64,000 nucleotides of DNA from Ruminococcus sp. Its GTDB lineage: Bacteria; Bacillota; Clostridia; Oscillospirales; Ruminococcaceae. Position 1 is the stretch's first letter, and every line of letters starts with the position of its first letter. Below the pieces are notes generated by a model. It was given only the letters and a program-made list of their open reading frames with translations. It did no database searches and was not told where the DNA came from. Of the stretch, positions 29,284 to 42,851 are shown in pieces. The translations under genes were made by a program, and so were the position numbers. The stretch is taken from the NCBI GenBank assembly GCA_017525915.1, contig JAFXSC010000020.1:1-64000 (forward strand), in the 5' to 3' direction.

Positions 29284-29287
29284 TGCA

Positions 29288-29320
29288 AGGGACGGCTTCT
29301 AAGCCGTCCTTTCTGTTATT
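29288..29320 (+). terminator. Terminator after the efp unit
   Basis: GGACGGCT pairs with AGCCGTCC around TCTA, followed by TTTCTGTTATTT. Confidence 0.85.
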
Positions 29321-29342
29321 TCATGGAATTTTCCTTTGCCTA

Positions 29343-29371
29343 TTTACTTTCGGCGCGGTTTGGTGTATAAT
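29343..29371 (+). promoter_or_regulatory. Promoter of the glutamine synthetase-like gene
   Basis: TTTACT (29343-29348) is 17 bases from a perfect TATAAT (29366-29371). The leader is only about 25 bases, so no riboswitch fits. Confidence 0.7.
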
Positions 29372-29403
29372 ATATTTGTATATTTTCCCAAGAGGTGAAC
29401 GCA

Positions 29404-30696
29404 ATGAGCTTTTCCCCAAAAGAGATACTTAAATTCGTTGAAGAAAACGATGTAAAATTTATAAGACTTACCTTCTCGGACGCCGCCGGAAACCTCAAGA
29501 ATGTTGCGATAATGCCGGACGAGCTTCCGAGAGCCTGCGAATACGGCATACCTTTCGACGCTTCTAGCATCAGCGGATGCAGTGAGGATATGCTTCTCGT
29601 TCCGGATATATCCACACTTTCCGTGCTGCCGTGGAGACCGCAGTCCGGCAGGGTAGTGCGCTTCTTCTGCTCCCTCAGAAATGCTGACGGTTCTGATTAC
29701 CGCGGCGATATGAGAACTGAGCTTATCAACTACATCAACTCCCTCAGACTGGACGGCTTTTCCTGCGAAATGGGTACGAAGTGCGAATTCTACCTGTTTG
29801 ACATTGACGGCAGGGGACAGCCTACTCATACTCCTCATGACAACGGCGGCTACCTTGACGTTGCACCGCTCGACAAGTGCGAGAATGCACGCCGCGAGAT
29901 ATGTCTGACCCTTGAGGAAATGGGTATGCACCCGAAGAGCTCCTGCCACAAGCACGGTCCCGCACAGAATGAGATAGATTTCCGTGAGAGCGAGCCGGTA
30001 ACGGCGGCTGACAATATGCTCCACTACAAGACCGTCGTAAAGTCCATTGCCGCGCAGAACGGTCTGTTCGCGTCCTTCATGCCAAAGCCGCTCCCGGACG
30101 AGCACGGCAGCGCTCTGAGTATACTCATGAGCGTGAGAAAGAACGGCGAGCATATCTTCGGCGGATTCCCGGGTGAAATGTCACACGAGGGAAAATGCTT
30201 CATTTCCGGCATACTTTCAAGGATACGCGAGATAACTGCATTTCTTGACCCTACAACCAATTCCTACAAGCGCTTTGGCATAGGATATGCCCCGAAATAC
30301 GTTGACTGGAGCTTTGAGAACCACTCGCAGCTCATAAGGATACCCCACACGGCTGGGCTTTCTCCGCGCATCGAACTGCGTTCGGCTGATGCCTGCTGCA
30401 ACCCATACATCACATTCAGACTGATACTTGCCGCCGGTATCGAGGGTATTCGTTCCGGAAACTGCGATATTCTTGATTCGACACACAGTCTCGGCTCAGC
30501 CGGCAGATGTGAACAGCTTCCGACTTCGCTTGAGGAAGCCCTTGCTATCGCCCGGACGAGCGATTTTGTCAAGCGAAATCTGCCAGACGAGATACGCAGC
30601 GACGTGTTCGCCCAGCTTGACAAGCAGGTGCAGGAGTACAGCCTTGCGAGGAGCAAGGACGAGTTCGAGCAGAATTACTACTTTAAGTACGTCTGA
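29404..30696 (+). CDS. Glutamine synthetase type I homologue lacking key metal ligands (probable pseudoenzyme)
   Basis: The 430-residue protein aligns end to end with Bacillus GlnA (FMPKPL, TNSYKRF, IRIP, IELRSADACCNPY). Several catalytic positions are changed. By alignment, the first Glu of EPEFFLF is Lys126, the Glu of HHEVAPGQ is Lys183, and the His of NGSGMH is Ser239; these match Salmonella E129, E212 and H269, three of six metal ligands. Glu128, the QNE Glu and Glu324 remain. It probably cannot make glutamine and may be a sensor or act on another substrate. It is 11 bases ahead of an ANTAR regulator, which suggests nitrogen control. The start is ATG 29404 after GAGGTGA. Confidence 0.85.
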   Translation: MSFSPKEILKFVEENDVKFIRLTFSDAAGNLKNVAIMPDELPRACEYGIPFDASSISGCSEDMLLVPDISTLSVLPWRPQSGRVVRFFCSLRNADGSDYRGDMRTELINYINSLRLDGFSCEMGTKCEFYLFDIDGRGQPTHTPHDNGGYLDVAPLDKCENARREICLTLEEMGMHPKSSCHKHGPAQNEIDFRESEPVTAADNMLHYKTVVKSIAAQNGLFASFMPKPLPDEHGSALSILMSVRKNGEHIFGGFPGEMSHEGKCFISGILSRIREITAFLDPTTNSYKRFGIGYAPKYVDWSFENHSQLIRIPHTAGLSPRIELRSADACCNPYITFRLILAAGIEGIRSGNCDILDSTHSLGSAGRCEQLPTSLEEALAIARTSDFVKRNLPDEIRSDVFAQLDKQVQEYSLARSKDEFEQNYYFKYV

Positions 30697-30707
30697 GGTA
30701 GGCTGAT

Positions 30708-31280
30708 ATGAACAGAGCATTGATAGTCGAGCCCTTTCCGGAAACAGCCGATACACTGCGCCAGCAGCTTGCCGCTGAGGGCTATGGCATTATAGCGACA
30801 GCGGTCTCCGGAAGCGAGGCGCGCAGGCTCATCGCCGGCGAAGCCGAGCCCGAGCTTGTCGTTATTGATACCCCGCTGCCGGACGAATTCGGTCAGGAGC
30901 TTTCCGTGATGATAGCGGAAAATACCTCCGCCGGTATAATTTTGATATGCAGCGGCGACATTGCCGATGACGTAGGGGACAAGGTCTCCGGAAGCGGCGT
31001 GTGCGTTATATCGAAGCCGCTGAATGTGCACCAGCTCAGCCGTTCGGTAAAGCTTGTCAGCGCGACACGTTCGAGAATGATGGGACTGAAAAAGGAAAAC
31101 GCCGATCTTCTCACGAGGATCGACGAGATGAGGCTGATAAACCGTGCAAAGTGTACGCTTATGCAGTACCTGAAATTCACTGAACCGCAGGCGCACAAGT
31201 ACATCGAAAAGCAGGCAATGAACACGCGCCAGACGCGCAGAGAGGTTGCAATGCGTATCCTTGCGACGTATGAAAGATAA
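30708..31280 (+). CDS. Response regulator with ANTAR RNA-binding domain
   Basis: Residues 1-120 are a receiver domain: RALIVEPFPETADTLRQQL, the phosphate-accepting Asp in VVIDTPLPDEFG, and a KPL motif near residue 105. Residues 125-190 are an ANTAR domain (LINRAKCTLMQYLKFTEPQAHKYI, TRREVA). ANTAR proteins act as antiterminators by binding paired hexaloop hairpins in mRNA leaders. In Ruminococcus and other Clostridia they sit beside glutamine synthetase genes, as here. I saw no clear dual-hexaloop target nearby. Confidence 0.92.
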   Translation: MNRALIVEPFPETADTLRQQLAAEGYGIIATAVSGSEARRLIAGEAEPELVVIDTPLPDEFGQELSVMIAENTSAGIILICSGDIADDVGDKVSGSGVCVISKPLNVHQLSRSVKLVSATRSRMMGLKKENADLLTRIDEMRLINRAKCTLMQYLKFTEPQAHKYIEKQAMNTRQTRREVAMRILATYER

Positions 31281-31344
31281 TGGCAGGTTAAAACAATTTT
31301 CGCAATATTTGGTCAGCGATAAAAGATTGTTCACAGTTTGTTCA

Positions 31345-31373
31345 TTGCATTTTTGCAAATAATATGATAATAT
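31345..31373 (+). promoter_or_regulatory. Promoter of a candidate small RNA
   Basis: TTGCAT (31345-31350) is 17 bases from TAATAT (31368-31373). It follows the ANTAR gene and no plus-strand open frame lies downstream before a terminator. Confidence 0.6.
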
Positions 31374-31379
31374 ATATAC

Positions 31380-31492
31380 AGTACCCGAGGGAGCTAACTT
31401 TACAGCATTTTTGCCTGTATGATCTGTTCCACGGGTACGGCCAGTTTATAAGGAACGCCGGAGTGCTCACTGAGCCTCCGGCGTTGTATTTT
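31380..31492 (+). ncRNA. Candidate non-coding RNA between the ANTAR gene and nadE
   Basis: A unit of about 113 bases has its own promoter and terminator. GTACCCG (31381-31387) pairs with CGGGTAC (31432-31438) to close a domain, with GGGA/TTCC inside and an apical hairpin TACAG/CTGTA (31401-31405 and 31415-31419). The closing terminator has a perfect 10-base-pair stem. I do not recognise the family: tmRNA, 6S, SRP RNA and the common riboswitches do not fit by sequence or size. Confidence 0.5.
31454..31492 (+). terminator. Terminator between the candidate sRNA and nadE
   Basis: AACGCCGGAG (31454-31463) pairs perfectly with CTCCGGCGTT (31476-31485), followed by GTATTTTT. It abuts the nadE stop codon and may also slow transcription arriving from the other strand. 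Confidence 0.9.
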
Positions 31493-32241
31493 TAAAGTGC
31501 AAGTTCGTATTTGGGCATGAGTCTGAGCTTGTGGAGATTTGCAGCGTGGAGACGGTCGATCTTCGCCTTTATATCCGGGTGATCGCTGAGGTCGTCAAGA
31601 CCGCGGATGTACTTGTCGAGCATTGCATAGGTGAAGCCGAGATTGTCCTCGTCAGTCTTGCCGCAGAGACCGTCAGTAGGCACCTTGTGGACGAGCTCCT
31701 TCGGGAGACCGAGCTCATCGCCGACCTGCAATACCTCGGTTACAGTGAGGGAGGAAAGAGGGGAGAAATCACCGGCAGCGTCGCCGTATTTGGTCGAGTA
31801 GCCTACCCAGTCCTCGGAGAGGTTGCAGGTATTGACAACACGTCCGCCGCATGAAGCAGCAACGGCATAGAGAGTGGTCATGCGTATCCTTGCGGGGGTA
31901 TTGATAACTGCCTGCTGAGAAGGCTCGATATGTGTGCTGAGTTCTGACATGAACGTCTTGACGGTATCGCCGATATTGATGGTGTAATTAGTGATGCCGA
32001 GGGTATCAACGAGGAGCCTGCTGTATGATATATCCGACTGCTCTCCCTGAGGCATGAGAACGCCGATAACTCTGTCCTTGCCGAGAGCTCTTACGCAGAC
32101 AGCGGCAGCGATCGAGCTGTCCTTTCCGCCGGAGATGCCGACAACGGCTTTGGTCGTGGGGGAAGCAGTTTCAGCGAACAGCTCGCGCACCCACTCGATA
32201 ACTTCACGGGTAACTTTTTTAGCGTCGAATACATAAGACAT
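31492..32241 (-). CDS. nadE: NAD synthase, ammonia-dependent
   Basis: The 249-residue protein has the ATP pyrophosphatase P-loop SGGKDSS at residues 37-43 and the family blocks NTPARIRMTTLYA, NLSEDWVGYSTKYGDAAGDFSPLSSLT and KVPTDGLCGKTDEDNLG. It has no glutaminase domain, so it should use ammonia to amidate deamido-NAD. The start at 32241 has AAGGAGG upstream. It is transcribed toward the ANTAR gene and pairs functionally with nadD at 19665. Confidence 0.96.
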   Translation of the reverse strand: MSYVFDAKKVTREVIEWVRELFAETASPTTKAVVGISGGKDSSIAAAVCVRALGKDRVIGVLMPQGEQSDISYSRLLVDTLGITNYTINIGDTVKTFMSELSTHIEPSQQAVINTPARIRMTTLYAVAASCGGRVVNTCNLSEDWVGYSTKYGDAAGDFSPLSSLTVTEVLQVGDELGLPKELVHKVPTDGLCGKTDEDNLGFTYAMLDKYIRGLDDLSDHPDIKAKIDRLHAANLHKLRLMPKYELAL

Positions 32242-32313
32242 GATAATACCTCCTTGAGATGTGAGAAATTCACATAATAAGAATATCACATTTCTGCACA
32301 TTTGTCAAGTACC

Positions 32314-32342
32314 AAATGAAAAAGCGGACATTTCTGTCCGCT
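32314..32342 (-). terminator. Terminator after the hexapeptide transferase gene
   Basis: AGCGGACA (32323-32330) pairs with TGTCCGCT (32335-32342); read on the minus strand, it is followed by TTTTTCATTT. It separates the hexapeptide gene from nadE. Confidence 0.85.
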
Positions 32343-32348
32343 TAGGTT

Positions 32349-33014
32349 TCAGTTCTTCTTCACGATAACTCCGCCGGTCTTCCATATGCTGTCCGGAGGC
32401 ATAACGCCCCTTACACAGCTTGTGGGATAGATATTGCAGTTCCTTCCGATGACAGTACCTGGATTGAGTACGCTGTTGCAGCCGACCTCTACATGATCAC
32501 CGAGCATGGCGCCTATCTTCTTTATGCCTGTCTCAAGGGTTTCGCTTCCGGATTTTATTACAACATTGGTTTTGTCGGACTTGACGTTGGAGGTTATAGA
32601 GCCTGCACCCATATGTGATTTATAACCAAGAATGCTGTCACCGACGTAGTTGTAATGGGGAGTCTGAACATTGTCGAAGATAATGACGTTCTTCAGCTCG
32701 ACCGAGTTGCCGATGACGCAGCCTGCACCTACAAGAGCATTGCCGCGGATAAAGGCACAGTGGCGGACTTCCGTCTCAGGTCCGATGATGCAGGGGGCGC
32801 CGAGATAAGCACTCGGGAAGACTTTTGCGGTCTTATGTACCCAGACATTCTCGGCAGGGGAGTCGTACTCATCCGGACTGAGTCTGCTTCCGAGTTCGAT
32901 GATAAGGCTACCGATGCCCTTAAGAGCCTCCCATGGGTATTCAAAGCCGCTGAGATAGTCTGCGGCTATTGTATGACTAAGGTCATAAAGGTCTTTTATT
33001 CTGACGTTTTCCAT
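32349..33014 (-). CDS. Left-handed beta-helix (hexapeptide) transferase
   Basis: The 221-residue protein has an N-terminal helical region, then hexapeptide repeats (AFIRGNALVGAGCVIGNSVELKN, MGAGSITSNVKSD, GCNSVLNPGTVIGRNCNIYP). This resembles the C-terminal half of GlmU and UDP-N-acetylglucosamine acyltransferase-like proteins. It lacks the pyrophosphorylase domain of GlmU. It may transfer an acyl group to a sugar nucleotide, but the substrate is not visible. The start at 33014 follows AAAGGAG. Confidence 0.82.
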   Translation of the reverse strand: MENVRIKDLYDLSHTIAADYLSGFEYPWEALKGIGSLIIELGSRLSPDEYDSPAENVWVHKTAKVFPSAYLGAPCIIGPETEVRHCAFIRGNALVGAGCVIGNSVELKNVIIFDNVQTPHYNYVGDSILGYKSHMGAGSITSNVKSDKTNVVIKSGSETLETGIKKIGAMLGDHVEVGCNSVLNPGTVIGRNCNIYPTSCVRGVMPPDSIWKTGGVIVKKN

Positions 33015-33115
33015 TATTTCCGCTCCTTTAGCGTGTGATTTACATATCAATTATACTATCTTCGGGCTGATATGTCAATAAAATTGTGAATTTAAGATTA
33101 TTTTTGCGATTTCTC

Positions 33116-33144
33116 TTTACATTTTGAGAAAATAGTGATAGAAT
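33116..33144 (+). promoter_or_regulatory. Promoter of the SGNH lipoprotein gene
   Basis: TTTACA (33116-33121) is 17 bases from TAGAAT (33139-33144), about 77 bases ahead of the start codon. Confidence 0.7.
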
Positions 33145-33221
33145 GTTATGAGTGGACAGATATCGTTCTGTTTCCCGAAGGTAAGGCTTTGCTTTACAAA
33201 TATTTTCCGGAGTTGACCTTA

Positions 33222-34115
33222 ATGATTATAAGATCTTCAAGTATATCAAAGTTTGTAGCAGCAGCTCTGTCTCTTACGATGCTTGCCTCCTGCGGCACTA
33301 CCGTAAAGGAAGGTTCGGGCACAGACACTGCTGCCGAGGTGACAACGACTGTCACCGAGACCACTACTACTACCGCTCCGCCGGCTACTGCCCCGAGCGA
33401 AATAACGACTGCGCCGAAGCAGCCTGCCGTTGTTGTCACCGACGCTTCCGGCAACGCTATCGACCAGACACTTCCGAAGGCTACCACTTCTCCGAATGCC
33501 GCCTTCTATCAGGACAGGCTCTATGTGACAGGCGACTCTATCTGTCACGGCTTCAACGTATTCGGATTCGTACAGGAAAACCACTGCATAACACAGGGTT
33601 CTGTTTCAATGTGGAACCGTGATTACTTCTACTTTGACACCCCTTATGGCTCATACCAGATGGTCGATGCGGTCGCGGCGCTCCAGCCGAAGCTGCTGTA
33701 TATGTCCCTCGGCATGAACGATGTGAATATGGGCGACCCGCAGGCTTTCGCGGACAAGTACGCCGAAACGGTCAATGATATCATGCAGCGCGTTCCGGAT
33801 ATAAACATCGTTGTCGCAAGCATTACTCCTATCGACGCGAATGTTACAGATTTCACCTCCAATGAAGTTATCCGCAGCTTCAATGCGGCGCTTAAAACCA
33901 AGATAGAGGGGCTCAGAAGCAACAGGGTACACTACTTCGATGCGTATTCTGTCATCGCAGACCCGAATACTCTATCCATGAGGGCAGGCGGCACTTCCGG
34001 TGACGGCATACACCTTTCCACCGAATGCTATACCGATTTTCTCAATGCACTGTTCCTGGAACTCGACAAGACTGACTTCATGGCTCAGATACAGGCATCT
34101 GAAGGCACAGCCTGA
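33222..34115 (+). CDS. SGNH/GDSL-type esterase lipoprotein
   Basis: The 297-residue protein has a lipoprotein signal (basic RSSSISK, then FVAAALSLTMLASC with the lipobox Cys at residue 23) and a Thr/Pro-rich linker. The SGNH domain follows: TGDSICHG with the catalytic Ser, SLGMNDVN as the GxND block and GDGIHLS holding the Asp and His. Such enzymes deacetylate cell-wall or plant polysaccharides at the surface; the substrate is unknown. ATG 33222 follows CGGAG and is preferred to the longer frame starting at 33135. Confidence 0.88.
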   Translation: MIIRSSSISKFVAAALSLTMLASCGTTVKEGSGTDTAAEVTTTVTETTTTTAPPATAPSEITTAPKQPAVVVTDASGNAIDQTLPKATTSPNAAFYQDRLYVTGDSICHGFNVFGFVQENHCITQGSVSMWNRDYFYFDTPYGSYQMVDAVAALQPKLLYMSLGMNDVNMGDPQAFADKYAETVNDIMQRVPDINIVVASITPIDANVTDFTSNEVIRSFNAALKTKIEGLRSNRVHYFDAYSVIADPNTLSMRAGGTSGDGIHLSTECYTDFLNALFLELDKTDFMAQIQASEGTA

Positions 34116-34167
34116 GCAATAGTACAAAGCACGGAGATTCTGTGCGGTTCTGATACAGAAGTTTCAA

Positions 34168-34213
34168 GCCATAGTATTTTTGATGTGCGGTCAGAAATGC
34201 TATGGCGTTTTTA
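34168..34213 (+). terminator. Terminator after the SGNH gene
   Basis: GCCATAG (34168-34174) pairs with CTATGGC (34200-34206), with a 25-base loop, followed by GTTTTTATT. Confidence 0.65.
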
Positions 34214-34281
34214 TTGTCTTCACTTCCATGCTGTGCTGTGACCGTCATCGACATAAATCAATGCTTGAAGGGGGATTATCT

Positions 34282-34737
34282 ATGAATATCGGATTCAGAA
34301 AAGCTGATCTGGCAGACGCAGAGCTGCTGATAGAAATTTACAATTCTTCGTTCTATGATGACTATATAAAATACGGCGAATGTCCCGCATATGGTAAGAC
34401 TAAGGAAATGATGAGACGGTCAATAGCTGATTATCCGAAATTCCTGATCCTTTACCATGAAAAACCGGTCGGGAGCATTTCGTGCAAAGAATTGCGGCAA
34501 GGAATATATGAGATCGGATGCTTATGTGTTGTCCCGGAGTTTCAGGGAAAAGGCATCGGTACATCTGCAATGGAATTCGTTAAGTCGTATTATACCGGCT
34601 GGAACAGGTTTACATTGGTCACTCCGGCAGATAAAAGCGAAAATGTCTTGTTCTATACAGAAAAATGCGGATTTTATATTCAGTCATTAGAAATGGACGG
34701 GAATGTTCAGGTTGCCCGATTTGTTCTGGAAAGGTAA
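34282..34737 (+). CDS. GNAT family N-acetyltransferase
   Basis: The 151-residue protein has the GNAT core: a VGSISCKEL strand, LCVVPEFQGKGIGTSAMEF as the acetyl-CoA-binding motif A, and ENVLFYTEKCGFY as motif B. The acceptor is unknown. It starts at ATG 34282 after GAAGGGGG. It is more AT-rich than the housekeeping genes and borders the recombinase region, so it may be acquired. Confidence 0.85.
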   Translation: MNIGFRKADLADAELLIEIYNSSFYDDYIKYGECPAYGKTKEMMRRSIADYPKFLILYHEKPVGSISCKELRQGIYEIGCLCVVPEFQGKGIGTSAMEFVKSYYTGWNRFTLVTPADKSENVLFYTEKCGFYIQSLEMDGNVQVARFVLER

Positions 34738-34807: not shown

Positions 34808-35032
34808 TTATGTATCGCTCTGTCTTACCGTTTCCTGGCATTTATATCTTGCCGCAAGTGCTTCTGCTTCGTCTGGATGAGCTGAATAGTAAATGCTCAG
34901 TGCCTTGCTTATACTGTCGCGCATCCCGTCGGCAAGTTTTTCCCGTGTGGAGGTTCCGAGTGCGGAAAAATTCCGGATTTCTCCGCATATATCTGTATAG
35001 CCGGCAGCTCTGTAAGTGTTCTTCCTTCCCAT
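34808..35032 (-). CDS. Small hypothetical protein divergent from a serine recombinase
   Basis: I do not recognise this 74-residue protein. It is mostly helical, with REKLADGMRDSISKALSIYY and DEAEALAARYK. The start at 35032 has GGGAG eight bases upstream on the minus strand, which supports a real gene. It is divergent from the recombinase at 35106 and may belong to the same element. The 70 bases between it and the GNAT gene show nothing clear. Confidence 0.5.
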   Translation of the reverse strand: MGRKNTYRAAGYTDICGEIRNFSALGTSTREKLADGMRDSISKALSIYYSAHPDEAEALAARYKCQETVRQSDT

Positions 35033-35105: not shown

Positions 35106-36533
35106 ATGAGTACAGCGGCGGCGTACATCAGGGTATCGACCGAGGACCAGACCGAGTTCTCACCGGATTCCCAGCTTAAGGCGGTGCGTGCATACGCGGT
35201 GAGTCACGGATTTGAACTCCCGGAGGAATTCATTTTCGTTGACGAGGGTATATCCGGAAGACGTGCGGAAAAGCGTCCGGCTTTCCAGAAAATGATAGGG
35301 ACTGCAAAGCTCAGACCCAAGCCTTTTGATGTGATACTCCTCTGGAAATTCAGCCGTTTTGCGCGTAACCGTGAGGACAGCATAGTCTATAAGTCCATGC
35401 TTCGAAAGCAGTGCGGAATTGACGTGATATCGGTGTCCGAACAACTCAGCGAGGATAAGACTTCCGTGCTCATTGAAGCGCTTATCGAGGCTATGGACGA
35501 GTATTACAGCCTGAATCTTGCGGAGGAGGTACGCAGGGGTATGCAGGAGAAATTCTCGCGCGGAGGAGTTGTCTCGCAGCCGCCGTTCGGCTATGTGATG
35601 AGCGGAGGGAAATTCGTTCCGGACAGCGTGAACGCGGATATCGTCCGCAGCATTTTCAGCGGATTTATTTCCGGAAAGGGAGCGCGTCAGATAGCCGCAG
35701 AGCTCAATGATATGGGGATAACTACGGTCAGGGGCAACCCATTTGAGAACCGGGCGGTTGAGTATATCCTGACTAATCCGGTCTATACCGGAAAGCTGAG
35801 AAGGAGCCTGCATAGCCGCAATGCTCACGACCGCTTCCATGAAGACAGTGAAAACGTTCAGTTTGTTGATGGCAGTCATGAGCCGCTGATAACTCAGGAG
35901 ATGTTCGACAGGGCACAGGAGATACGCTCCGCGAACAAGCGCATATTCGGAAGAAATACGCACTTTGTGCCGTCTGATACCATGCTTCGCGGACTTGTGC
36001 GGTGCTCTGCCTGCGGTTCGGCGCTCACGCGGCAGTCCGCGGCAGAAAGTCTCCAATGCTGCGGTTATGCAAAGGGGCTGTGCAGCGTTTCACATTCGGT
36101 CCGTATCAATAAACTTGAATCTCTCGTTGCTGAGCGGCTGATAAGTGATCTTGGCGGCAGCATTATCATTGATGTCGAGCCTGCCGGAATACCTGCGGAA
36201 ACTGTTCCGCCTGCCGAAGCATTGCTCGTAAAGGAACGCAGAAAGCTTGACAGGGTGCGCGAGGCATACGAATCCGGGGTCGATGACCTTGATGAGTACC
36301 GCCGGAAAAAGGAGCGGATAACAGCGCGTATCGCTGAGCTTGAGGAGATGGTGCACCGTGAGAAAAATGAACGCAGTGCCGGGAACAGCTTTTCCGGACG
36401 GCTGACAGTTCCGGTCAGCATACTTGCAGACCCGGAGGTGAGTGCCGCTGCAAGGAACACAGCTCTCCGCTCAGTCATAGACCGGATAGTTCTTGTCAGA
36501 CCGGGAAATACCGTTGAGGTATACTACAAATAG
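35106..36533 (+). CDS. Large serine recombinase 1
   Basis: The 475-residue protein has the resolvase domain with catalytic Ser11 in AAYIRVSTEDQ, the arginines of LLWKFSRFARNREDS, the recombinase domain (PPFGYVMSGGKFVPD, ILTNPVYTGKLRRS), a zinc ribbon (VRCSACGSAL, CCGYAKGLC) and a C-terminal coiled coil. Large serine recombinases catalyse site-specific integration and excision. ATG 35106 follows CAGGAGGAAG. It ends 24 bases before a cotJC fragment. No other genes of its own element are evident, so it may be a remnant of a second, decayed element. Confidence 0.93.
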   Translation: MSTAAAYIRVSTEDQTEFSPDSQLKAVRAYAVSHGFELPEEFIFVDEGISGRRAEKRPAFQKMIGTAKLRPKPFDVILLWKFSRFARNREDSIVYKSMLRKQCGIDVISVSEQLSEDKTSVLIEALIEAMDEYYSLNLAEEVRRGMQEKFSRGGVVSQPPFGYVMSGGKFVPDSVNADIVRSIFSGFISGKGARQIAAELNDMGITTVRGNPFENRAVEYILTNPVYTGKLRRSLHSRNAHDRFHEDSENVQFVDGSHEPLITQEMFDRAQEIRSANKRIFGRNTHFVPSDTMLRGLVRCSACGSALTRQSAAESLQCCGYAKGLCSVSHSVRINKLESLVAERLISDLGGSIIIDVEPAGIPAETVPPAEALLVKERRKLDRVREAYESGVDDLDEYRRKKERITARIAELEEMVHREKNERSAGNSFSGRLTVPVSILADPEVSAAARNTALRSVIDRIVLVRPGNTVEVYYK

Positions 36534-36557
36534 CCTTCGCCTTAAAAGTATAACCAT

Positions 36558-36686
36558 ATGCCGTCAGGCGGTCCGGACGGAGAACTTGCGGCAGCTCTGC
36601 GCTATCTCAGTCAGCGCTACGCGATGCCGTATGCAGAGGTCAAGGGACTGCTGACGGATATCGGTACGGAGGAATATGAACATTAA
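36558..36686 (+). pseudogene. cotJC: Internal fragment of spore-coat manganese catalase gene cotJC
   Basis: Translated from 36558, this piece reads GGPDGELAAALRYLSQRYAM and, after a short stretch, KGLLTDIGTEE, which matches the conserved early part of CotJC. The match begins at GG (about 36567) and stops after GTEE (36674); the next residues are YEH and a stop. Both the N-terminal part and the large C-terminal part are missing. An in-frame TAA lies just upstream. The left break is 24-33 bases from recombinase 1 and the right break 27 bases from the end of recombinase 2. CotJC is a spore-coat protein of the ferritin-like catalase group. Confidence 0.85.
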
Positions 36687-36701
36687 TGATATATATGATA
36701 A
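36660..36701. other. Probable left attachment site (attL) of the prophage
   Basis: The cotJC homology ends at about 36674, 27 bases before the stop of the inward-facing integrase at 36702. Serine integrases usually lie next to one attachment site. The crossover should be near GGTACGGAGGAA (36663-36674). The matching attR, with the rest of cotJC, would be beyond the right edge and cannot be checked here. Confidence 0.55.
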
Positions 36702-38207
36702 TTATAAAAGCGCTATATCGAGCGTGAACGGGATATTATGCCATTTATCACGAATGTCTGTTTCGCGGTGATATGTGATAGTTTTTACAGCAGCCCGGAG
36801 CAGGCGGTTCTTTTCTTCAGCTGAAACGTCCGGCGATTCAAGAGCCTTAACAGCTTCCTGCAAAGCAATATACCTTTGATGATAGTCTATCTTGCTATCT
36901 TCCATAGACTTAGCCTCTTTGATAGCTTCATTCAATTCCTTGCGTCTCTGAGCGAGGGCAGCGTTACGCTTCACGAAGACTTCGCTTGTATATATGCCCT
37001 GTTCGAGGAATTCGTATAAACGGTCCTGCTGAGTTTCAAGTGCGTTGAGTTCCTTCTGCAATTTGGCAGCTATCGCTTTATGAGCGGCAGGGATTTCCTC
37101 AGCATTGCCGGTCAGCAGCTCGTGGAGGTCTGCTGCAAGTTTACGGAGTGCTTTAACGATCTCTTCCTCGACCTCGGTATAAGTTGCGGAGCGATTGCCG
37201 CAGTGCATCTGATAAGCGCAGTGCAGCCTCGCAGCACATCTGCGATGTGGCTGATATATCATAGTTCTGCCGCAGGAGCAGCGAAGAATGCCTGCGAACG
37301 GATTTGAAAGACCGGATGCAGCCTTGACCTTCGGCATAGACCCGAACTTAGCAAGCGAAGCATTGAACACATCTTCCGAAATGATCGGCTCGTGCTTGCC
37401 GTCAACAAGGAGCCATTCCTCTTTCTTGGACTTCGGACGGGAGGAGACGAGCTCGCCCTCATCATACTTTTTGACAGTCTTTCGCCAGTTCCAGCGTATC
37501 TTTCCGATGTATACCGGATTGCGGAGCATATCCCTGATGCTCGCACTGCTCCAGATATCGGACTTGCGCGGCTTAATGTGCAGAGCATTCAGCCTGTTCG
37601 CAATAGTTGTAGTGCCGAGCCCCTCCTTAGTCCATAGTTCATAGATCAGCCGCACGGTATCCGCTTCGGCATTCGGTGTGAGTGTATATACCTTGCCGAC
37701 CTTTGCCTTATCGTATCCGTATGGCGGCACTGAGCCGATGAAGTTGCCCTCGTTCACGGAGGCCAGGCGTCCGCGCATCATTATTTCCTTGACGTATTCA
37801 AGATAGTCATTGCCGCGCATGAGCTCCATTTCAAAAAACTTCCGGTCGTACTTTTCAGCAAGGTCGTATGTCTTTGTCGGAGTGACTATGAGCGTCTCGG
37901 TATACCGGAACGCTCTGATGATCGTACCGCAGTCTGAAAGATCGCCTCGGCTGAGACGCTGCGGCTCGACCACCAGCACGCCGGTGATCTTCTCGTTCTG
38001 GATACGGTCGAGGATCCTTTTCATCTCCGGACGGTCCTGAATGGTCTCACCGGAAACCACCTCCCGATAGATACGCTCTTCCGGGATAGCTCCGCCGAGC
38101 TTCGCGGCAGCGTAGTCCTGCAATATACGGTAATGCTTTGCGAGCACCTGTTCGACAGACTCGTGCTCACCGTCAGCTCTGGACTTACGGAGATAAACCA
38201 AGTACAT
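36702..38207 (-). CDS. Large serine recombinase 2, probable prophage integrase
   Basis: The 501-residue protein has catalytic Ser9 in YLVYLRKSRAD, the resolvase core (VVEPQRLSRGD), the recombinase domain (GSVPPYGYDKAKVGK, LRNPVYIGKIRWN), a zinc ribbon (LRCSCGRTM, LHCAYQMHCGNRS) and a long coiled coil. It starts at 38207 after AGAGAGATG. It is the leftmost phage gene, points at the cotJC junction and stands divergent from the phage early region, the normal place for an integrase. It should recombine attP with attB in cotJC; excision would need a directionality factor. Confidence 0.94.
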   Translation of the reverse strand: MYLVYLRKSRADGEHESVEQVLAKHYRILQDYAAAKLGGAIPEERIYREVVSGETIQDRPEMKRILDRIQNEKITGVLVVEPQRLSRGDLSDCGTIIRAFRYTETLIVTPTKTYDLAEKYDRKFFEMELMRGNDYLEYVKEIMMRGRLASVNEGNFIGSVPPYGYDKAKVGKVYTLTPNAEADTVRLIYELWTKEGLGTTTIANRLNALHIKPRKSDIWSSASIRDMLRNPVYIGKIRWNWRKTVKKYDEGELVSSRPKSKKEEWLLVDGKHEPIISEDVFNASLAKFGSMPKVKAASGLSNPFAGILRCSCGRTMIYQPHRRCAARLHCAYQMHCGNRSATYTEVEEEIVKALRKLAADLHELLTGNAEEIPAAHKAIAAKLQKELNALETQQDRLYEFLEQGIYTSEVFVKRNAALAQRRKELNEAIKEAKSMEDSKIDYHQRYIALQEAVKALESPDVSAEEKNRLLRAAVKTITYHRETDIRDKWHNIPFTLDIALL

Positions 38208-38254
38208 ACTATCATCTCTCTTCACGGTAATATCAGTAAATAACAACAAATAAC

Positions 38255-38282
38255 ATTATACAGTATACAAATAACTAAGCAA
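38255..38282 (-). promoter_or_regulatory. Promoter of the integrase
   Basis: On the minus strand TTGCTT (plus 38277-38282) is 16 bases from a perfect TATAAT (plus 38255-38260), about 48 bases ahead of the integrase start. The same TTGCTT -35 recurs in two other minus-strand phage promoters. Confidence 0.65.
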
Positions 38283-38362
38283 GTTGAAAAATGCATTGTA
38301 TAGTCGCAATTGTGAGTTTTTAACTGTTGATAAAAAATAAGGCACAATGCACAACTTCAATA

Positions 38363-38395
38363 AATCCCCTGCACGGAGCAGGGGATTGTTTTTAT
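38363..38395 (+). terminator. Hairpin between the integrase and a minus-strand small gene
   Basis: AATCCCCTGC (38363-38372) pairs perfectly with GCAGGGGATT (38378-38387) around ACGGA; GTTTTTAT follows on the plus strand. It overlaps the end of the minus-strand gene at 38392, so it may act mainly as an insulator. Confidence 0.7.
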
Positions 38396-38757
38396 AAGTC
38401 ATGGATTGAAACAAAACTTTCAGCTATTAAATCGGAATTTGTTTCAAAATCTCCTACATTATCAAGCCGAACCTTCCAATGAACTAAATTCTTTTTAGTA
38501 TCATTGAATCGCTCGTCATTTTGTATCTGTTTAGGCAGATTTAACCCGTGAATCGTAAACCATGTTACACGTTCAGTTGTTTTTATTCTGCAAAAATCAA
38601 AATCATTTGGAGCTAATAAGGTTAAGTAATCTTTGCTGCGTCTTCTAAAACGGATACAATCAAAGTTGATATTGCGTTTGATAAACTCATCCTTAATTAA
38701 TGCGACGGCGAACTCTTCGAGTATAGATAATTCTGCATCGGCATTGTAATTATCCAT
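38392..38757 (-). CDS. Hypothetical prophage protein
   Basis: I do not recognise this 121-residue protein. It has a mixed alpha/beta pattern (ELSILEEFAVALIKDEFIKR, FRRRSKDYLTLLAPNDFDF, TTERVTWFTIHGL) and no clear catalytic motif. The start at 38757 has a strong AAGGAGG upstream. It sits between the integrase and the immunity region on the lysogeny strand and may be expressed in lysogens. Confidence 0.65.
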   Translation of the reverse strand: MDNYNADAELSILEEFAVALIKDEFIKRNINFDCIRFRRRSKDYLTLLAPNDFDFCRIKTTERVTWFTIHGLNLPKQIQNDERFNDTKKNLVHWKVRLDNVGDFETNSDLIAESFVSIHDL

Positions 38758-38792
38758 TTTATAGAACCTCCTTAAAAAACATAAAGCCCATA

Positions 38793-38821
38793 TTGACAAT
38801 CCAACAATTGTTGGATATAAT
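38793..38821 (+). promoter_or_regulatory. Consensus phage promoter with operator in its spacer (O1)
   Basis: TTGACA (38793-38798) and TATAAT (38816-38821) are exactly 17 bases apart. The spacer is the perfect palindrome ATCCAACAATTGTTGGAT (38799-38816), so repressor binding would block RNA polymerase. It drives the small gene at 38855. Confidence 0.88.
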
Positions 38822-38854
38822 ATAACTAAGATATCACGGAAGGGGGGGAAGATA

Positions 38855-39082
38855 ATGAAAAACGATACTCTTAGAAACATAGAGGCGGAATTGAAAGCCA
38901 CTAATAGAAAGCTTGACACAACCAACAGACTCCTTAATATACTTATCAAGAAGGTTTCTAACGCAAGCACACCACGGCAGCCGTGGCTGCCGCAAGATCG
39001 TTTAAAAGAAGCAAACGAACTAAGTAGCGAAAATCCGGAAGTTTATGATTATATCTGCGAAGTTCTAAAGCTTTTCTTTTGA
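38855..39082 (+). CDS. Small repressor-controlled coiled-coil protein (antirepressor or recombination directionality factor candidate)
   Basis: I do not recognise this 75-residue protein. Residues 1-35 are a helical heptad pattern (RNIEAELKATNRKLDTTNRL); the rest is charged, ending in YICEVLKLFF. A strong GGAAGGGGGGAAG site precedes ATG 38855. Its only promoter is the operator-controlled O1 promoter, and it is convergent with the repressor operon. A gene switched on at induction beside the integrase could be an antirepressor or an excision factor. Both are inferences from position. Confidence 0.6.
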   Translation: MKNDTLRNIEAELKATNRKLDTTNRLLNILIKKVSNASTPRQPWLPQDRLKEANELSSENPEVYDYICEVLKLFF

Positions 39083-39083
39083 T

Positions 39084-39398
39084 TTAAGACATGAAAAAAG
39101 CAATTATTGAAACGGCTAAAGAGATAAGTGATATCACAATTGGAAAATAGAATCTGAATTGATCTTTTTTCATAAAAGCTAAAAAGGCTTTTCCTTTTTC
39201 AGAAATCTCAATCATATCTTTTATAGGGATCTGATTCCCGATTTCATCACTTTCATACTTACAATAATATATAAAATTGCTTTTTAACAGTTCGTCATAT
39301 TTGTTATCATACTTTAACTGCTTTTTGTGATTGGCTTTTTTAAGAAGTGTAATGTTTTTCTTTGATAAATATGTATTTGAAAAATCATAATTACCCAT
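39084..39398 (-). CDS. Membrane-anchored protein in the repressor operon
   Basis: The 104-residue protein has a lysine-rich soluble part (NTYLSKKNITLLKKANHKKQ) and one C-terminal membrane helix (FYFPIVISLISLAVSIIAFF). It follows the repressor by 12 bases and is likely co-expressed in the lysogen. Many Firmicute phages have an ImmA-type protease here, but this lacks the HExxH motif. A tail-anchored lysogenic protein could act in superinfection exclusion; this is inferred from place and topology alone. Confidence 0.65.
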   Translation of the reverse strand: MGNYDFSNTYLSKKNITLLKKANHKKQLKYDNKYDELLKSNFIYYCKYESDEIGNQIPIKDMIEISEKGKAFLAFMKKDQFRFYFPIVISLISLAVSIIAFFMS

Positions 39399-39410
39399 CT
39401 GACGTTGTCC

Positions 39411-39776
39411 TCACGATACTCTGTCTTTCTTAACAGCTTCTGTTTCGTTCTGCTCTGCCAAAGCTTCAGCTCTGCCGATAAGCTTCAGTTGTTGTTCTAT
39501 GGTAAGCTTTGAAAAACAGTATAATATTTCCCGCTCATTCTCCGTTAATTCGGAGGATGAGCTTTTTTCTGTTCTGCCGAGAAGGTAGTCAACAGAGACA
39601 TCAAGATAATCGGCGATTCTTGCAAGGCTGTCTGATTTAATCCATGAACCTCTGTTGCTCATTGTAGAAAGCGTGTTTTTATTAAGTTCAAGGTGTTCAA
39701 GCATTTCAACCGTTGAGATACCATTTAATTTAGCTGTTTTTTTAATAAGAGTTACAGTTTTGTTAACATCATACAT
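39411..39776 (-). CDS. Prophage repressor (XRE-type HTH)
   Basis: The protein of 121 residues has an N-terminal helix-turn-helix (STVEMLEHLELNKNTLSTMS, DSLARIADYLDVSVDYLLGR) and a helical C-terminus (NEREILYCFSKLTIEQQLKL), typical of short CI-like repressors without a peptidase domain. It should bind the palindromes at 38799, 39811 and 39841, all on the flank of its own gene and of the lytic promoters. The start at 39776 has GGCGGTG upstream. It is divergent from the Cro-like gene at 40007. Confidence 0.85.
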   Translation of the reverse strand: MYDVNKTVTLIKKTAKLNGISTVEMLEHLELNKNTLSTMSNRGSWIKSDSLARIADYLDVSVDYLLGRTEKSSSSELTENEREILYCFSKLTIEQQLKLIGRAEALAEQNETEAVKKDRVS

Positions 39777-39799
39777 AAAAACACCGCCTTTCTTGTATG

Positions 39800-39828
39800 A
39801 TTATACAAATTCAAATAATTGTTGGATT
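39800..39828 (-). promoter_or_regulatory. Candidate promoter of the repressor operon
   Basis: A perfect TATAAT lies on the minus strand (plus 39800-39805), 24 bases ahead of the repressor start. The -35 region would overlap operator O3 and has no good consensus, as expected for a promoter under self-control. Confidence 0.5.
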
Positions 39829-39862
39829 TATCCTTGACATTCCAACAATTGTAGGATATAAT
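39811..39862 (+). promoter_or_regulatory. Lytic early promoter with two operators (O2, O3)
   Basis: TTGACA (39834-39839) is 17 bases from TATAAT (39857-39862), and the spacer holds TCCAACAATTGTAGGA (39841-39856), one base off the O1 palindrome. A third, weaker copy, TCAAATAATTGTTGGA, is at 39811-39826 on the repressor side. The arrangement resembles a lambda-type switch: the repressor shuts the rightward promoter and may regulate its own leftward one. Confidence 0.85.
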
Positions 39863-40006
39863 ATACCTAAGCTATAAAGCGAGGCACAAAAAGCCCGCAG
39901 GGCAAAAGGCATGATATCATATATACTTACTGTGACAATTTAAGTATATATTATTTTATGTAAAATGTCAATAGCCAAGTTATGAACGAATGAAAGAGGT
40001 GAGGAT

Positions 40007-40198
40007 ATGTCATTACCTGAAAATATTGCTAAGCTTCGTCAGGAAAAAGGTTTTACACAGGTAGAACTTGCTAAAATACTCGATATTGCTCAGCCTAATA
40101 TCGCACAGTATGAAAAGGGTATAAAAGTGCCAAATATCGTAGTTGGTGTCGAGCTTGCAAAAGCTCTCGGTACAACTTGTGAGGAACTGGTGAAGTAA
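40007..40198 (+). CDS. Cro-like XRE transcription regulator
   Basis: The 63-residue protein is a single HTH domain: ENIAKLRQEKGFTQVELAKIL then IAQPNIAQYEKGIKVPN. Its size and place, divergent from the repressor and first in the rightward early unit, fit Cro. It probably binds the same operators. ATG 40007 follows AAAGAGGTGAGG. The 140 bases between the promoter and it have no gene. Confidence 0.85.
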   Translation: MSLPENIAKLRQEKGFTQVELAKILDIAQPNIAQYEKGIKVPNIVVGVELAKALGTTCEELVK

Positions 40199-40246
40199 GC
40201 AACTGTACAACCGCCCACAAACCACAACGAAGGAAGGAGGAAGAGA

Positions 40247-40393
40247 ATGGAGAAAGAGCAGAAAATCACCGTGAAGATAGGAGCGGACAATACAGAGCTC
40301 ATGGCAGCGCTGGACGAAATCGAGAAAAAAGTTGACCTGATAACAGCCAAGCTGGAGAAGCTCGGGCAGATAACAGGTCAGATGAAAGATTAA
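40247..40393 (+). CDS. Very small early phage protein
   Basis: The 48-residue protein starts at ATG 40247 after a strong GGAAGGAGG site. It is acidic then helical (AALDEIEKKVDLITAKLEKL), like small phage coiled-coil proteins. Function unknown. Its stop overlaps the end of the convergent zinc-ribbon gene. Confidence 0.6.
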   Translation: MEKEQKITVKIGADNTELMAALDEIEKKVDLITAKLEKLGQITGQMKD

Positions 40394-40581
40394 AGAAGAT
40401 TGCTGAGTGTGTTCAAAATATCGTTTTCAGCATCTTCAACAGCAGATTTAATTCCGTCGTCTTCGGTCATAAACTCCTTTTTGCAGAAAGGACAAGATAC
40501 AGAGCTACCGACGGAATCAACAGATATTGAGAATTCCTTGTTGCAGTAAGGACAGTCAATATCTATTTTATCAATTATCAT
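40390..40581 (-). CDS. Small zinc-ribbon protein
   Basis: The 63-residue protein has two knuckles, CPYCNKEF and CPFCKKEF, 16 residues apart, then an acidic helix. It probably binds one zinc ion. The start at 40581 follows AGGAGGTGATG. It is on the opposite strand from the early operon and has its own promoter. Confidence 0.7.
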   Translation of the reverse strand: MIIDKIDIDCPYCNKEFSISVDSVGSSVSCPFCKKEFMTEDDGIKSAVEDAENDILNTLSNLL

Positions 40582-40603
40582 TTCATCACCTCCTCTTGTT
40601 CTT

Positions 40604-40632
40604 ATTATATCAGACGGAGCAGGTGAAAGCAA
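40604..40632 (-). promoter_or_regulatory. Promoter of the zinc-ribbon gene
   Basis: On the minus strand TTGCTT (plus 40627-40632) is 17 bases from TATAAT (plus 40604-40609). It resembles the promoters at 40868 and 38255. Confidence 0.65.
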
Positions 40633-40676
40633 GGCGGAGAGCTGCCGGCACAAGCAGCCCTCGGGTGATGGGCAAA

Positions 40677-40802
40677 TCAGTTATCGCCGTTTGCGGCAGC
40701 GATAACCAATTCTTTTAACTCTTCGCGAGTTGGAATATGGCTGGAGACCTTCTCCAACTCGGCTTCGAGCTCCCATAAAGGACCAAAGAAGAAAAAGAAC
40801 AT
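40677..40802 (-). CDS. Small hypothetical protein
   Basis: A frame of 41 codons starts at 40802 with GAGGGGGTGATT ahead and its own promoter. It opens with five phenylalanines (MFFFFFGPLWELEAELEKV), then a charged helical end. Too short to assign; the strong ribosome site and promoter argue that it is real. Confidence 0.5.
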   Translation of the reverse strand: MFFFFFGPLWELEAELEKVSSHIPTREELKELVIAAANGDN

Positions 40803-40867
40803 AATCACCCCCTCTCTGAGTGGGGTAGGAAACAAACAGCAATGTGCCTTACTGAAGTTCCGCTCCT

Positions 40868-40897
40868 ATTATATCATACAGCGGAACAGGAAAGCAA
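40868..40897 (-). promoter_or_regulatory. Promoter of the 41-codon gene, with inverted repeat
   Basis: On the minus strand TTGCTT (plus 40892-40897) is 18 bases from TATAAT (plus 40868-40873). The -10 box is flanked by the inverted repeat GTTCCGCT (from 40855) and AGCGGAAC (to 40887), which could be an operator. Confidence 0.6.
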
Positions 40898-40940
40898 ACG
40901 GTACAACCCATAGTGCATAAGCATATAGAGAGGTGATAGT

Positions 40941-41180
40941 ATGAAAAACGATATAAGGAACTGGCAGGAAACCGAGACAGAGACCGAGCGCATTGTGAAC
41001 TATGATACCGACAAGGCGCATATCACAGTACATATCCCGAAGCGCACTCCCGAGGAGCAGGCGGAATATGAAAAGAGGATCCGCGCCGCTCTGAGACGGT
41101 TTTATCATCATGTCACCGTAGTGCAAGGCTTAGATTGGGATGAAATTCAAGAAAAATACAAAGACGACTTGTGCAGTTGA
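40941..41180 (+). CDS. Small early phage protein
   Basis: I do not recognise this 79-residue protein. It is highly charged (NDIRNWQETETETERI, RTPEEQAEYEKRIRAALRRF). ATG 40941 has GAGAGGTGAT upstream. Its last codons and stop lie inside the recurrent palindrome at 41170-41187. Confidence 0.65.
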   Translation: MKNDIRNWQETETETERIVNYDTDKAHITVHIPKRTPEEQAEYEKRIRAALRRFYHHVTVVQGLDWDEIQEKYKDDLCS

Positions 41181-41187
41181 CTGCACA
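41170..41187. repeat. 18-bp palindromic repeat, copy 1
   Basis: TGTGCAGTTGACTGCACA has seven-base arms and the centre TTGA. It overlaps a stop codon and ends 3 bases before the next ribosome site. Identical copies, in either orientation, are at 42444, 51639 and 56074. Confidence 0.9.
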
Positions 41188-41202
41188 GAAAGGAGCCATA
41201 CC

Positions 41203-41412
41203 ATGCAGATACTTAACGACACCCTATTCCTCGCGGACGTTATCGCGATCGCGGTGATGATGCACATAATCGCACGCTGTATCGCGGATGACAGTGAGAA
41301 GCGCAGGCAGAAGCGCCGTGACGAGGGCTACCAGAGACACAAGGCAAGGCTGAAAAAGGAGAGGATTATGGGCGAGAACCGCATCGAACTCTGGAGGAGG
41401 TATGCAAGATGA
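41203..41412 (+). CDS. Small membrane protein
   Basis: The 69-residue protein has one N-terminal membrane helix (FLADVIAIAVMMHIIARCI) and a strongly basic tail (KRRQKRRDEGYQRHKARLKK). ATG 41203 follows AAAGGAGCC. Function unknown. It ends on ATGA with the next gene. Confidence 0.65.
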   Translation: MQILNDTLFLADVIAIAVMMHIIARCIADDSEKRRQKRRDEGYQRHKARLKKERIMGENRIELWRRYAR

Positions 41413-41651
41413 AAGAACTCTTAATTACAGTACATATCAAGCAGGGACGCTATGATGAAATGCTCGAAGCGGCAAAGCAGATAGCTGAGAACTATGCAGA
41501 AGCTGGGATAGGAATGCTTGATACTCCTGAAAAAGTCATTGAATTTGCTGTTGAGGAGTGCGCTTTTGGCAGCAACGGCAGAATTGGTGCTGCTATCGAG
41601 TCTTTACTCAGAATATCTGAGAGAATGCGTGAGAAGGCGGTGAACAAGTAA
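41409..41651 (+). CDS. Hypothetical phage protein
   Basis: The 80-residue acidic helical protein (GRYDEMLEAAKQIAENYAEA; GRIGAAIESLLRISERM) is translationally linked to the gene before it (ATGA overlap). I do not recognise a family. Confidence 0.6.
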   Translation: MKELLITVHIKQGRYDEMLEAAKQIAENYAEAGIGMLDTPEKVIEFAVEECAFGSNGRIGAAIESLLRISERMREKAVNK

Positions 41652-41688
41652 TGGGAATACTGGATGAAATCGGGGAGGTGGAATAGAT

Positions 41689-41919
41689 ATGACAGAAGAA
41701 CAGGAGAAAAAGTATTGGTTTGTCCGCAGCAGCCTTCTTCCTTTGCTCCAAGCGATAGACAAGGACATTCTCAGCGCTGAGTATCAGCTTGACGGCAATG
41801 ACGAGTATGTCGAGGTCAGGTGGCTGTTCCAGAGTGGGACAAGCTACCGGCGCAAGGTCAATGTTACCGGCGACAGCCTGCTTGCAATTGCCAAAGATGT
41901 CCTAAAATGCATCGACTAA
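41689..41919 (+). CDS. Hypothetical phage protein
   Basis: The 76-residue protein (KYWFVRSSLLPLLQAIDKDI; VEVRWLFQSG) starts at ATG 41689 after GGGGAGGTGG. It looks like a small single-domain alpha/beta protein of unknown function. A short hairpin, GCTCCC-CGAA-GGGAGC, at 41928-41943 follows but has no T run. Confidence 0.6.
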   Translation: MTEEQEKKYWFVRSSLLPLLQAIDKDILSAEYQLDGNDEYVEVRWLFQSGTSYRRKVNVTGDSLLAIAKDVLKCID

Positions 41920-41993
41920 AGAAAAAAGCTCCCCGAAGGGAGCGAGATAAAATATAACCACCACTAATATACCACATACGAAAGGAAATGTCA

Positions 41994-42206
41994 ATGATCA
42001 GATACAAAATCAAGGACGTCGCCTTCGAGTGCAACGAGACGACAGGTGAAGCGAGAATTATCACGCCGGAGCAGGAAACCAAGTTCATAAATCCGATTGA
42101 GGCGTGGAATAGTTTCACAATGGCAGCGCTGAAACCTCTTGAGGATGAACTCCGGAACAAGCTCGAAGCAAACGGCTTTAATCGCTGGACAGGCATCAGA
42201 GTATAG
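41994..42206 (+). CDS. Hypothetical phage protein
   Basis: The 70-residue protein reads IRYKIKDVAFECNETTGEAR and is likely beta-rich, then helical. ATG 41994 is 7 bases from AAAGGA; the ATG at 41988 is too close to it. Function unknown. Confidence 0.6.
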   Translation: MIRYKIKDVAFECNETTGEARIITPEQETKFINPIEAWNSFTMAALKPLEDELRNKLEANGFNRWTGIRV

Positions 42207-42207
42207 T

Positions 42208-42441
42208 ATGGGAAAAAAGATACCCTACGATCAGGCATTACAGCTCGGAAGAACCGAGCATAACGATTCGATATATGCAAAAGAAAATCCTTATGGATTT
42301 CAGATCAATGTCAATCATCCGAAAATCAGGCCGCTGTATGAACGATACAAAGAAAAGATCGGGGAGCGGATCCTTTCTGACATCCAGCGGCGCGAGTTTG
42401 AAAACCACATATTCAGTATTCTGAAAAGAGGCAAAAAGTAA
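42208..42441 (+). CDS. Hypothetical phage protein
   Basis: The 77-residue basic protein (KKIPYDQALQLGRTEH, HPKIRPLYERYKEKIG) starts one base after the stop of the gene before it, so translation is probably coupled. No family recognised. Confidence 0.6.
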   Translation: MGKKIPYDQALQLGRTEHNDSIYAKENPYGFQINVNHPKIRPLYERYKEKIGERILSDIQRREFENHIFSILKRGKK

Positions 42442-42443
42442 CT

Positions 42444-42461
42444 TGTGCAGTCAACTGCACA
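42444..42461. repeat. 18-bp palindromic repeat, copy 2
   Basis: TGTGCAGTCAACTGCACA is the exact reverse complement of copy 1. It lies between a stop codon and the GAGGAGG ribosome site of the PcfK-like gene. Confidence 0.9.
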
Positions 42462-42474
42462 GAGGAGGATTTCG

Positions 42475-42843
42475 ATGGAAAAGATAGGTTATTTTTATTG
42501 CGGAAAAATCAAAGGTCAGGTACAGAAGGCTATTGCTTCTGCGACCGCAGCAGCGTTATCGAGTTTCTGTGAGCAGGAGCCTGAGTTCGAACAGGCAATA
42601 GAACAGAGCGGCAAGACCTTTCAGGATTGCCTTGACGAGGTAGCGAAAAGTGCAGGGAGCTGTATTTCTGATATAGAAGTATATCGCAAGGCTGTCAAGT
42701 TCTATTTTTCGACGGCAACAGTCAGCTTCGTTATGAATATCAACCTCAGCGGTGACATATCAGCGCCGCCCATTACCATGACAAAGAACGAGCCTAAGAA
42801 GGATGTCCTCAGCGTATCCCTCGACGATCTTCTTGACTTCTGA
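42475..42843 (+). CDS. PcfK-like protein
   Basis: The 122-residue protein ends in the PcfK-type tail KKDVLSVSLDDLLDF and stands directly before a PcfJ-like gene, the usual pair. The names come from the conjugative plasmid pCF10; their function is not established. ATG 42475 follows GAGGAGG, and the recurrent palindrome lies just before that site. Confidence 0.75.
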   Translation: MEKIGYFYCGKIKGQVQKAIASATAAALSSFCEQEPEFEQAIEQSGKTFQDCLDEVAKSAGSCISDIEVYRKAVKFYFSTATVSFVMNINLSGDISAPPITMTKNEPKKDVLSVSLDDLLDF

Positions 42844-42851
42844 GGTGCGAT

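Follow-up and report, generated by a model that had tools for sequence, protein, structure and literature searches.

Two serine-integrase sites divide the spore-coat gene cotJC of a Ruminococcus genome into three pieces

Within a 64,000-nucleotide stretch of Ruminococcus sp. DNA (hereafter the window), a short piece of coding sequence lies enclosed by two large serine integrases, and the question arises where the rest of the gene is located and whether it could be put together again. The frame at 36567-36674 translates as GGPDGELAAALRYLSQRYAMPYAEVKGLLTDIGTEE and had been taken for cotJC in an earlier note on this DNA, an assignment borne out by a match to the profile PF05067 (Mn catalase/CotJC; E 4.1e-10). 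A profile search of the genome (G000; 3.09 Mb, 67 contigs, 99.9% complete; the window lies on contig C39) yielded three PF05067 matches, all partial. No full-length or intact cotJC, which the earlier note had named as speaking against an interruption, was found by this search. The spore-coat gene is present in G000 as three separate pieces, parted by two cuts:

36567..36674, forward strand: cotJC middle piece, codons 30-65 (PF05067 profile 30-78)
G000:C50:92425-92529: cotJC N-terminal piece (PF05067 profile 1-35)
G000:C67:15942-16313, reverse strand: cotJC C-terminal piece, codons 65-203 (PF05067 profile 62-198)

On C50, the N-terminal piece is directly preceded by cotJA and cotJB. Joining of the three pieces at the cores of the attachment sites gives a 203-codon cotJC frame, and attL and attR join in frame and without stops at both cuts, referred to as site 1 (codon 30) and site 2 (codon 64). 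The joined CotJC (203 aa) is 92% identical to the intact CotJC of a relative (G062). The absence of the N-terminal part to the left of the window piece, already noticed before, is real and is explained by the second cut, the N-terminal codons being located on C50; a simple loss of this part was ruled out, since it is present there with an att half-site. What the earlier note overlooked is the second cut, each of two serine integrases having its own site in cotJC.

The following features belong to site 2:

36669..36674, forward strand: site-2 att core region GAGGAA, of which only GAA is common with C67:16299-16301 (reverse strand)
36675..64000: prophage B, left ~27 kb (terminase, portal, major head, tape measure)
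36681..36693: prophage B attP arm CATTAATGATATA, position counted by hand; partner arm TATATCATTAATG on C67
36702..38249, reverse strand: IntB, the large serine integrase encoded by prophage B (coordinates of the listed ORF; its first ATG lies at about 38207)
51866-53380: prophage B terminase
53387-54898: prophage B portal
56176-57330: prophage B major head
60341-63994: prophage B tape measure

In agreement with the earlier note, the cotJC frame stops at 36674, and the 3′ end of the inward-facing IntB follows after 27 bp. The proposal of a prophage in cotJC with its attL at the window piece is supported by the C-terminal remainder at C67:16313-15942: where a continuation from about HLEMIA had been anticipated at the right prophage end, C67 reads GAA followed by CTCGCTCACGTTGAAATG, i.e. 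E followed by LAHVEM. The suggested comparison with uninterrupted relatives agrees, as, besides the intact gene of G062, the gene of G101 is continuous across the position of site 2. At this site, the gene halves thus flank an integrase-bearing element. IntB contains Resolvase and Recombinase domains, with the zinc ribbon below the cut-off (21.7 of 25.3 bits), and shares ~24% identity with IntA of site 1; elsewhere in the genus, relatives of IntB likewise adjoin pieces of cotJC. The att arms of prophage B form a 13-nt inverted repeat, a length reached in 0 of 2000 shuffles; the core GAA is not significant alone, since it is equalled in 14 of 42 shifted registers. Prophage B continues to C39:69165 and then probably over C67:18921-16302, with ~35 kb in all and cotJC on both sides. 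Its part on C67 comprises RT, Avd and endolysin genes, followed by the att half-site and cotJC codons 65-203.

Prophage B also carries a diversity-generating retroelement (C39:69137-69165 and C67:16541-18921) with RT, Avd, and template and variable repeats, the variable repeat being split over two contig ends where the assembly breaks. Close to the end of C67 lies the template repeat, to which the terminal 29 bp of C39 (to 69165) are identical; its other end agrees in 24 of 25 positions with the initial 25 bases of C67 when these are read backwards. Because this repeat is common to both contig ends, C39 and C67 probably adjoin. A tRNA-Met (CAT) is located within prophage B at 49865-49940.

At site 1, the situation is different with regard to the DNA adjoining the att sites:

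1..34737: host chromosome left of IntA, not mobile element, by gene content
34808..35032, reverse strand: ORF of 74 aa, oriented divergently to IntA and a candidate for the recombination directionality factor (RDF)
35106..36533, forward strand: IntA, large serine integrase of the site-1 family (Resolvase, Recombinase and zinc-ribbon domains, all over cut-off)
36544..36555: site-1 attP arm AAAAGTATAACC, position counted by hand; partner arm on C50
36567..36580, forward strand: site-1 att core region GGCGGTCCGGACGG, with CCGGACGG in register with C50:92509-92525

IntA ends 33 bp left of the cotJC middle piece, and 8 further genomes of the genus have a relative with 52-70% identity next to a piece of cotJC. 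The att arms form a 12-nt inverted repeat with the arm on C50 (0 of 2000 shuffles as long), and the shared core CCGGACGG was equalled in length in 0 of 42 shifted registers. Halves and att sites therefore exist in G000, but the adjoining DNA is host chromosome and not an element flanked by the halves. From their translations, we take genes in window 1-34737 to be spoIIR, infC, topA, smc, ftsY, leuS, efp, and NAD synthase; a GDSL lipase and a GNAT were assigned by Pfam. An ordinary prophage reaching leftwards into this region was ruled out, since the genes there are host genes. On C50, a potassium-channel gene follows the att half-site within about 100 bp, and 2 kb further the contig ends in an rRNA leader (recognised by eye). 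In G101, one junction consists of the cotJC N-terminal part, the att half and then host genes including the channel gene, the other of lipase, small gene, IntA, att half, and cotJC from ~codon 30 to 203. In G098, IntA and the cotJC C-terminal part adjoin NAD synthase, with cotJB on another contig together with the channel gene. Because both junctions are common to G000 and G101, and in view of the layout of G098, the split at site 1 seems older than the divergence of G000 and G101, and a chromosome rearrangement seems to have parted the halves. Attempts to derive the parting inversions from the gene order in G003, G009, G010, G022, G023, G098, and G101 gave no solution.

The cotJ genes are expressed in the mother cell. 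G000 possesses SpoIVA, Spo0A and sigma-E/K-like genes, the best match to the sigma-K model lying below the cut-off (279.4 of 298.65 bits), which no control genome passes, B. subtilis included. Cuts at a few fixed points in many relatives suggest recombinational rejoining when spores form. With a probability of roughly 70%, we consider cotJC to be the attachment gene of two distinct large-serine-integrase systems that is rejoined in the sporulating mother cell. Evidence comes from the pieces, the att arms and cores, the in-frame joins, the integrases, both of them intact, purifying selection, the repeated use of the same sites in other genomes, and phage relatives with an intact attP; sporulation as the time of rejoining is suggested by the likeness to skin and SPbeta. 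With prophage B at codon 64 and the IntA site at codon 30, the vegetative chromosome would be without an intact cotJC. During sporulation, each integrase together with a directionality factor would recombine its own attL with its own attR in the mother cell, and both joins being in frame, the 203-aa CotJC would result. Since the mother cell dies, the forespore would inherit the split gene.

Alternatively, cotJC might be a safe-harbour site whose loss costs little, with excision by ordinary phage induction and survival of the gene via frequent prophage loss; we regard this as unlikely. Loss of CotJC-type proteins has been reported with weak effects in the accessible portions of two studies (PMC11222575, PMC12122855), full-length PF05067 paralogues with 35-38% identity occur in the split genomes G004, G005, G006, G029, G046, and G119, and the cultured Ruminiclostridium papyrosolvens C7 has a full-length PF05067 match in addition to three cotJC pieces. 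Also, prophage B looks like a complete phage by gene content. Against this stand the persistence of small integrase-bearing elements (about 4 kb in G024 and G209, 3.7-3.9 kb at L161 and L189) and the conservation of IntA and the cotJC pieces between G000 and G101, to which the split is common.

Improbable is a second alternative, according to which cotJC is broken and decaying in lineages with insertions. Halves can indeed be far apart (G000, G101, G254, G255), and 22 of the 125 genomes of the genus are without a PF05067 match among the matches listed, many of these genomes being incomplete. The dN/dS values between G000 and G101 argue against decay, with 0.062/0.73 for the N-terminal piece (about 0.08; 32 codons), 0.053/1.21 for the middle piece (about 0.04; 31 codons), and 0.022/2.7 for the C-terminal piece (about 0.01; 138 codons; dS saturated). 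For IntA, 0.23/1.61 was obtained and for the 74-aa small gene 0.61/1.67, which is weaker. The cotJC pieces and IntA are thus under purifying selection between two species with a common site-1 layout. Decay is also opposed by the joins, of which 41 of 44 are without stop codon, the exceptions being G024 (stops beyond a second cut) and G006 and G417_s3 (core not found). These 44 junction pairs are those with both sides in hand; since their register was fixed by homology and the per-site windows were set after a wide-window pass, which helps joins come out open, openness is a weak test and the dN/dS result the stronger one. In the wide-window pass, the core was misplaced or stops occurred in G000_s2, G004, G006, G072, G081_s2, G262, G349, and G417_s3, and G050 and G223 were not evaluable. 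The in-register core of the 44 pairs had a mean length of 6.0 nt compared to 2.1 nt in shifted registers; in 31 pairs the core was matched by no more than 1 of 42 shifts, and 13 pairs, G000 site 2 among them, are without a distinctive core.

To describe the recurrence in the genus, all following counts refer to the matches listed. PF05067 was matched in 103 of 125 genomes, with a full-length cotJC in 31, a cotJC beginning at profile position 4-7 in 15, and only paralogues or unclear pieces in 8. By our reading, 49 genomes look cut inside cotJC: 32 with C-terminal parts starting at 42-66, 10 starting at 17-30 (including six without a listed N-terminal piece), 5 with only the N-terminal part, and 2 others. 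Sequence was fetched for 36 of these 49 and used for integrase comparison in 35; a serine integrase belonging to these families was present on the retrieved sequence in 26 of the 35 and absent from it in 9 (short stretches). Three genomes starting at profile 4-7 were examined: in G003 and G010, an element between cotJC codons 6 and 7 was seen from both sides, and in G009 the right side was read. A single cotJC of G022, on one 336-kb contig, contains both insertions, which measure 33 and 35 kb and have ORFs that look phage-like by eye.

Cut cotJC was found in 23 of the best 80 of at least 594 named GTDB loci, one of them (L201) at a contig end; R. papyrosolvens C7 is among these 23. Among 28 entries examined outside the genus, which were chosen mostly because they seemed split and are not a sample, G130, G209, G262, G312, G349, G350, and G415 showed splits on one contig. 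G161 and G270 have an apparent further cut at about codon 150. Many genomes are drafts or MAGs and the G000 pieces lie on three contigs, but an assembly or binning artefact is highly improbable, as the same sites recur across many genomes, pieces share one contig in G022, G041, G059, G105, G312 and others, the one-contig genome G255 is split, and the SpoIVA ATPase domain used as control, matched in 120 of 124 genomes, is full-length in 118 of these 120 (in pieces in G096 and G103).

Judged by sequence relationship, distinct integrase families mostly appear to keep to their own sites in cotJC. Codon ~30 is the position of IntA relatives and codon ~64 that of IntB relatives, while integrases of a third group are located at codon ~60; as an exception, the integrase of L184 (codon ~61) is nearest to the site-0 integrase of G003. 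In IMG/VR, 14 relatives of IntB and 31 of IntA were obtained. By eye, a palindromic attP immediately following the integrase gene, a sign of DNA that is not integrated, was recognised in 9 of the 14 and 15 of the 31, a run straight into cotJC in 1 and 6, and loci ending there or unclear in 4 and 10, respectively. A copy of the predicted attP of prophage B was not found in IMG/VR, only relatives.

Rejoining at site 1, where the att halves adjoin host chromosome, would take another form than at site 2. Since the flanks are host genes (G000, G101) and an rRNA leader (G000), simple excision cannot restore cotJC, and long-range recombination would be needed. Tentatively, and with considerable doubt, we propose that the two parts of cotJC in G000 and its sister G101 occupy chromosomal positions far from each other, and that a large inversion or resolution, carried out by IntA with a small partner, would restore the gene in the terminal mother cell, which can afford such a rearrangement because it never divides again. 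According to GC skew, both halves seem to be co-oriented with the leading strand in each of the two species, but this is compatible with inverted as well as with direct orientation of the halves. In the one-contig genome G255, the cotJC halves are about 674 kb apart on one strand with a complete integrase at one of them, and in G254 they are likewise far apart. At L228 (G223:C83, 4803-15267), the halves lie in opposite orientation ~10 kb apart on one contig with an integrase beside the N-terminal half, and an inversion would rejoin them. At L223 (G267:C1, 1313660-1325622), the halves are in reversed order ~11.5 kb apart; no recombinase was seen near them among the listed ORFs. With halves so separated, the idea that a dying cell rearranges its DNA on the scale of the chromosome becomes testable.

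The ORF of 74 aa beside IntA is a candidate for the directionality factor and provides a lead. Homologues were found at 13 of the 31 IntA loci from IMG/VR; G101 and G024 also have one adjacent to IntA, and none was found in the short IntA stretches of G033, G066, G096, and G107. The ORF and the G022 phage copy both match phrog_26314 (unknown function); a Pfam match was not obtained for the ORF. For comparison, the RDF of the C. difficile skin element has 72 aa and is needed for excision according to the text available from that report (PMC5025042).

Several known systems resemble the one described here, as far as can be taken from the accessible parts of the respective reports. The skin element in sigK of B. 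subtilis and C. difficile is likewise a serine-recombinase element interrupting a sporulation gene, from which it is excised with precision (PMC5025042); here, by contrast, the target is cotJC, several integrase families use fixed sites within one gene, and the case is known from sequence. SPbeta in spsM is, like prophage B, a complete prophage in a spore-envelope gene, and spsM is rejoined during sporulation (PMC4191935), whereas here two cuts occur in one gene and this gene is cotJC. The elements in cotJC at L161 and L189 (one serine recombinase, a 54-68 aa ORF upstream, one cargo gene) resemble gin in gerE, a serine-recombinase element without phage genes in a small sporulation gene (PMC5595907); gin has 28.6 kb and three recombinases (PMC5595907), compared to 3.7-3.9 kb and one. 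Further sporulation genes split by intervening elements are spoVFB (vfbin), spoVR (vrin), kamA (phi3T), and yabG (yin), described in the available text as one element per gene, with no mention of cotJC there. In C. difficile, the right end of prophage phi027 lies beside a cotJC homologue, placed downstream of attR and not called split in the accessible description.

Split targets named in the available literature text are sigK, spsM, spoVFB, spoVR, gerE, kamA, and yabG, i.e. single elements in single genes, and no report of a split cotJC was found in the open-access literature. In a gut genus and also outside it, cotJC apparently serves as a common hotspot for attachment, with several fixed sites, distinct integrases and sometimes two cuts. 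The range from full phages to ~4 kb elements offers a natural series for studying how phages are taken into a developmental programme. The finding is likewise relevant to the question whether Ruminococcus of the rumen and gut forms spores, sporulation genes being kept (SpoIVA in 120 of 124 genomes).

Two further loci were noted. L226 (G312:C19, 126047-127576) contains an additional recombinase-like ORF, which is directed towards the 3′ end of the C-terminal cotJC part and perhaps marks another attachment site. At L211 (5416-10408; Lachnospiraceae MAG SUG1763), an element cuts cotJC at codon ~61 and carries a cotJA-like ORF (by eye) and its own full-length cotJC, as if providing a replacement copy.
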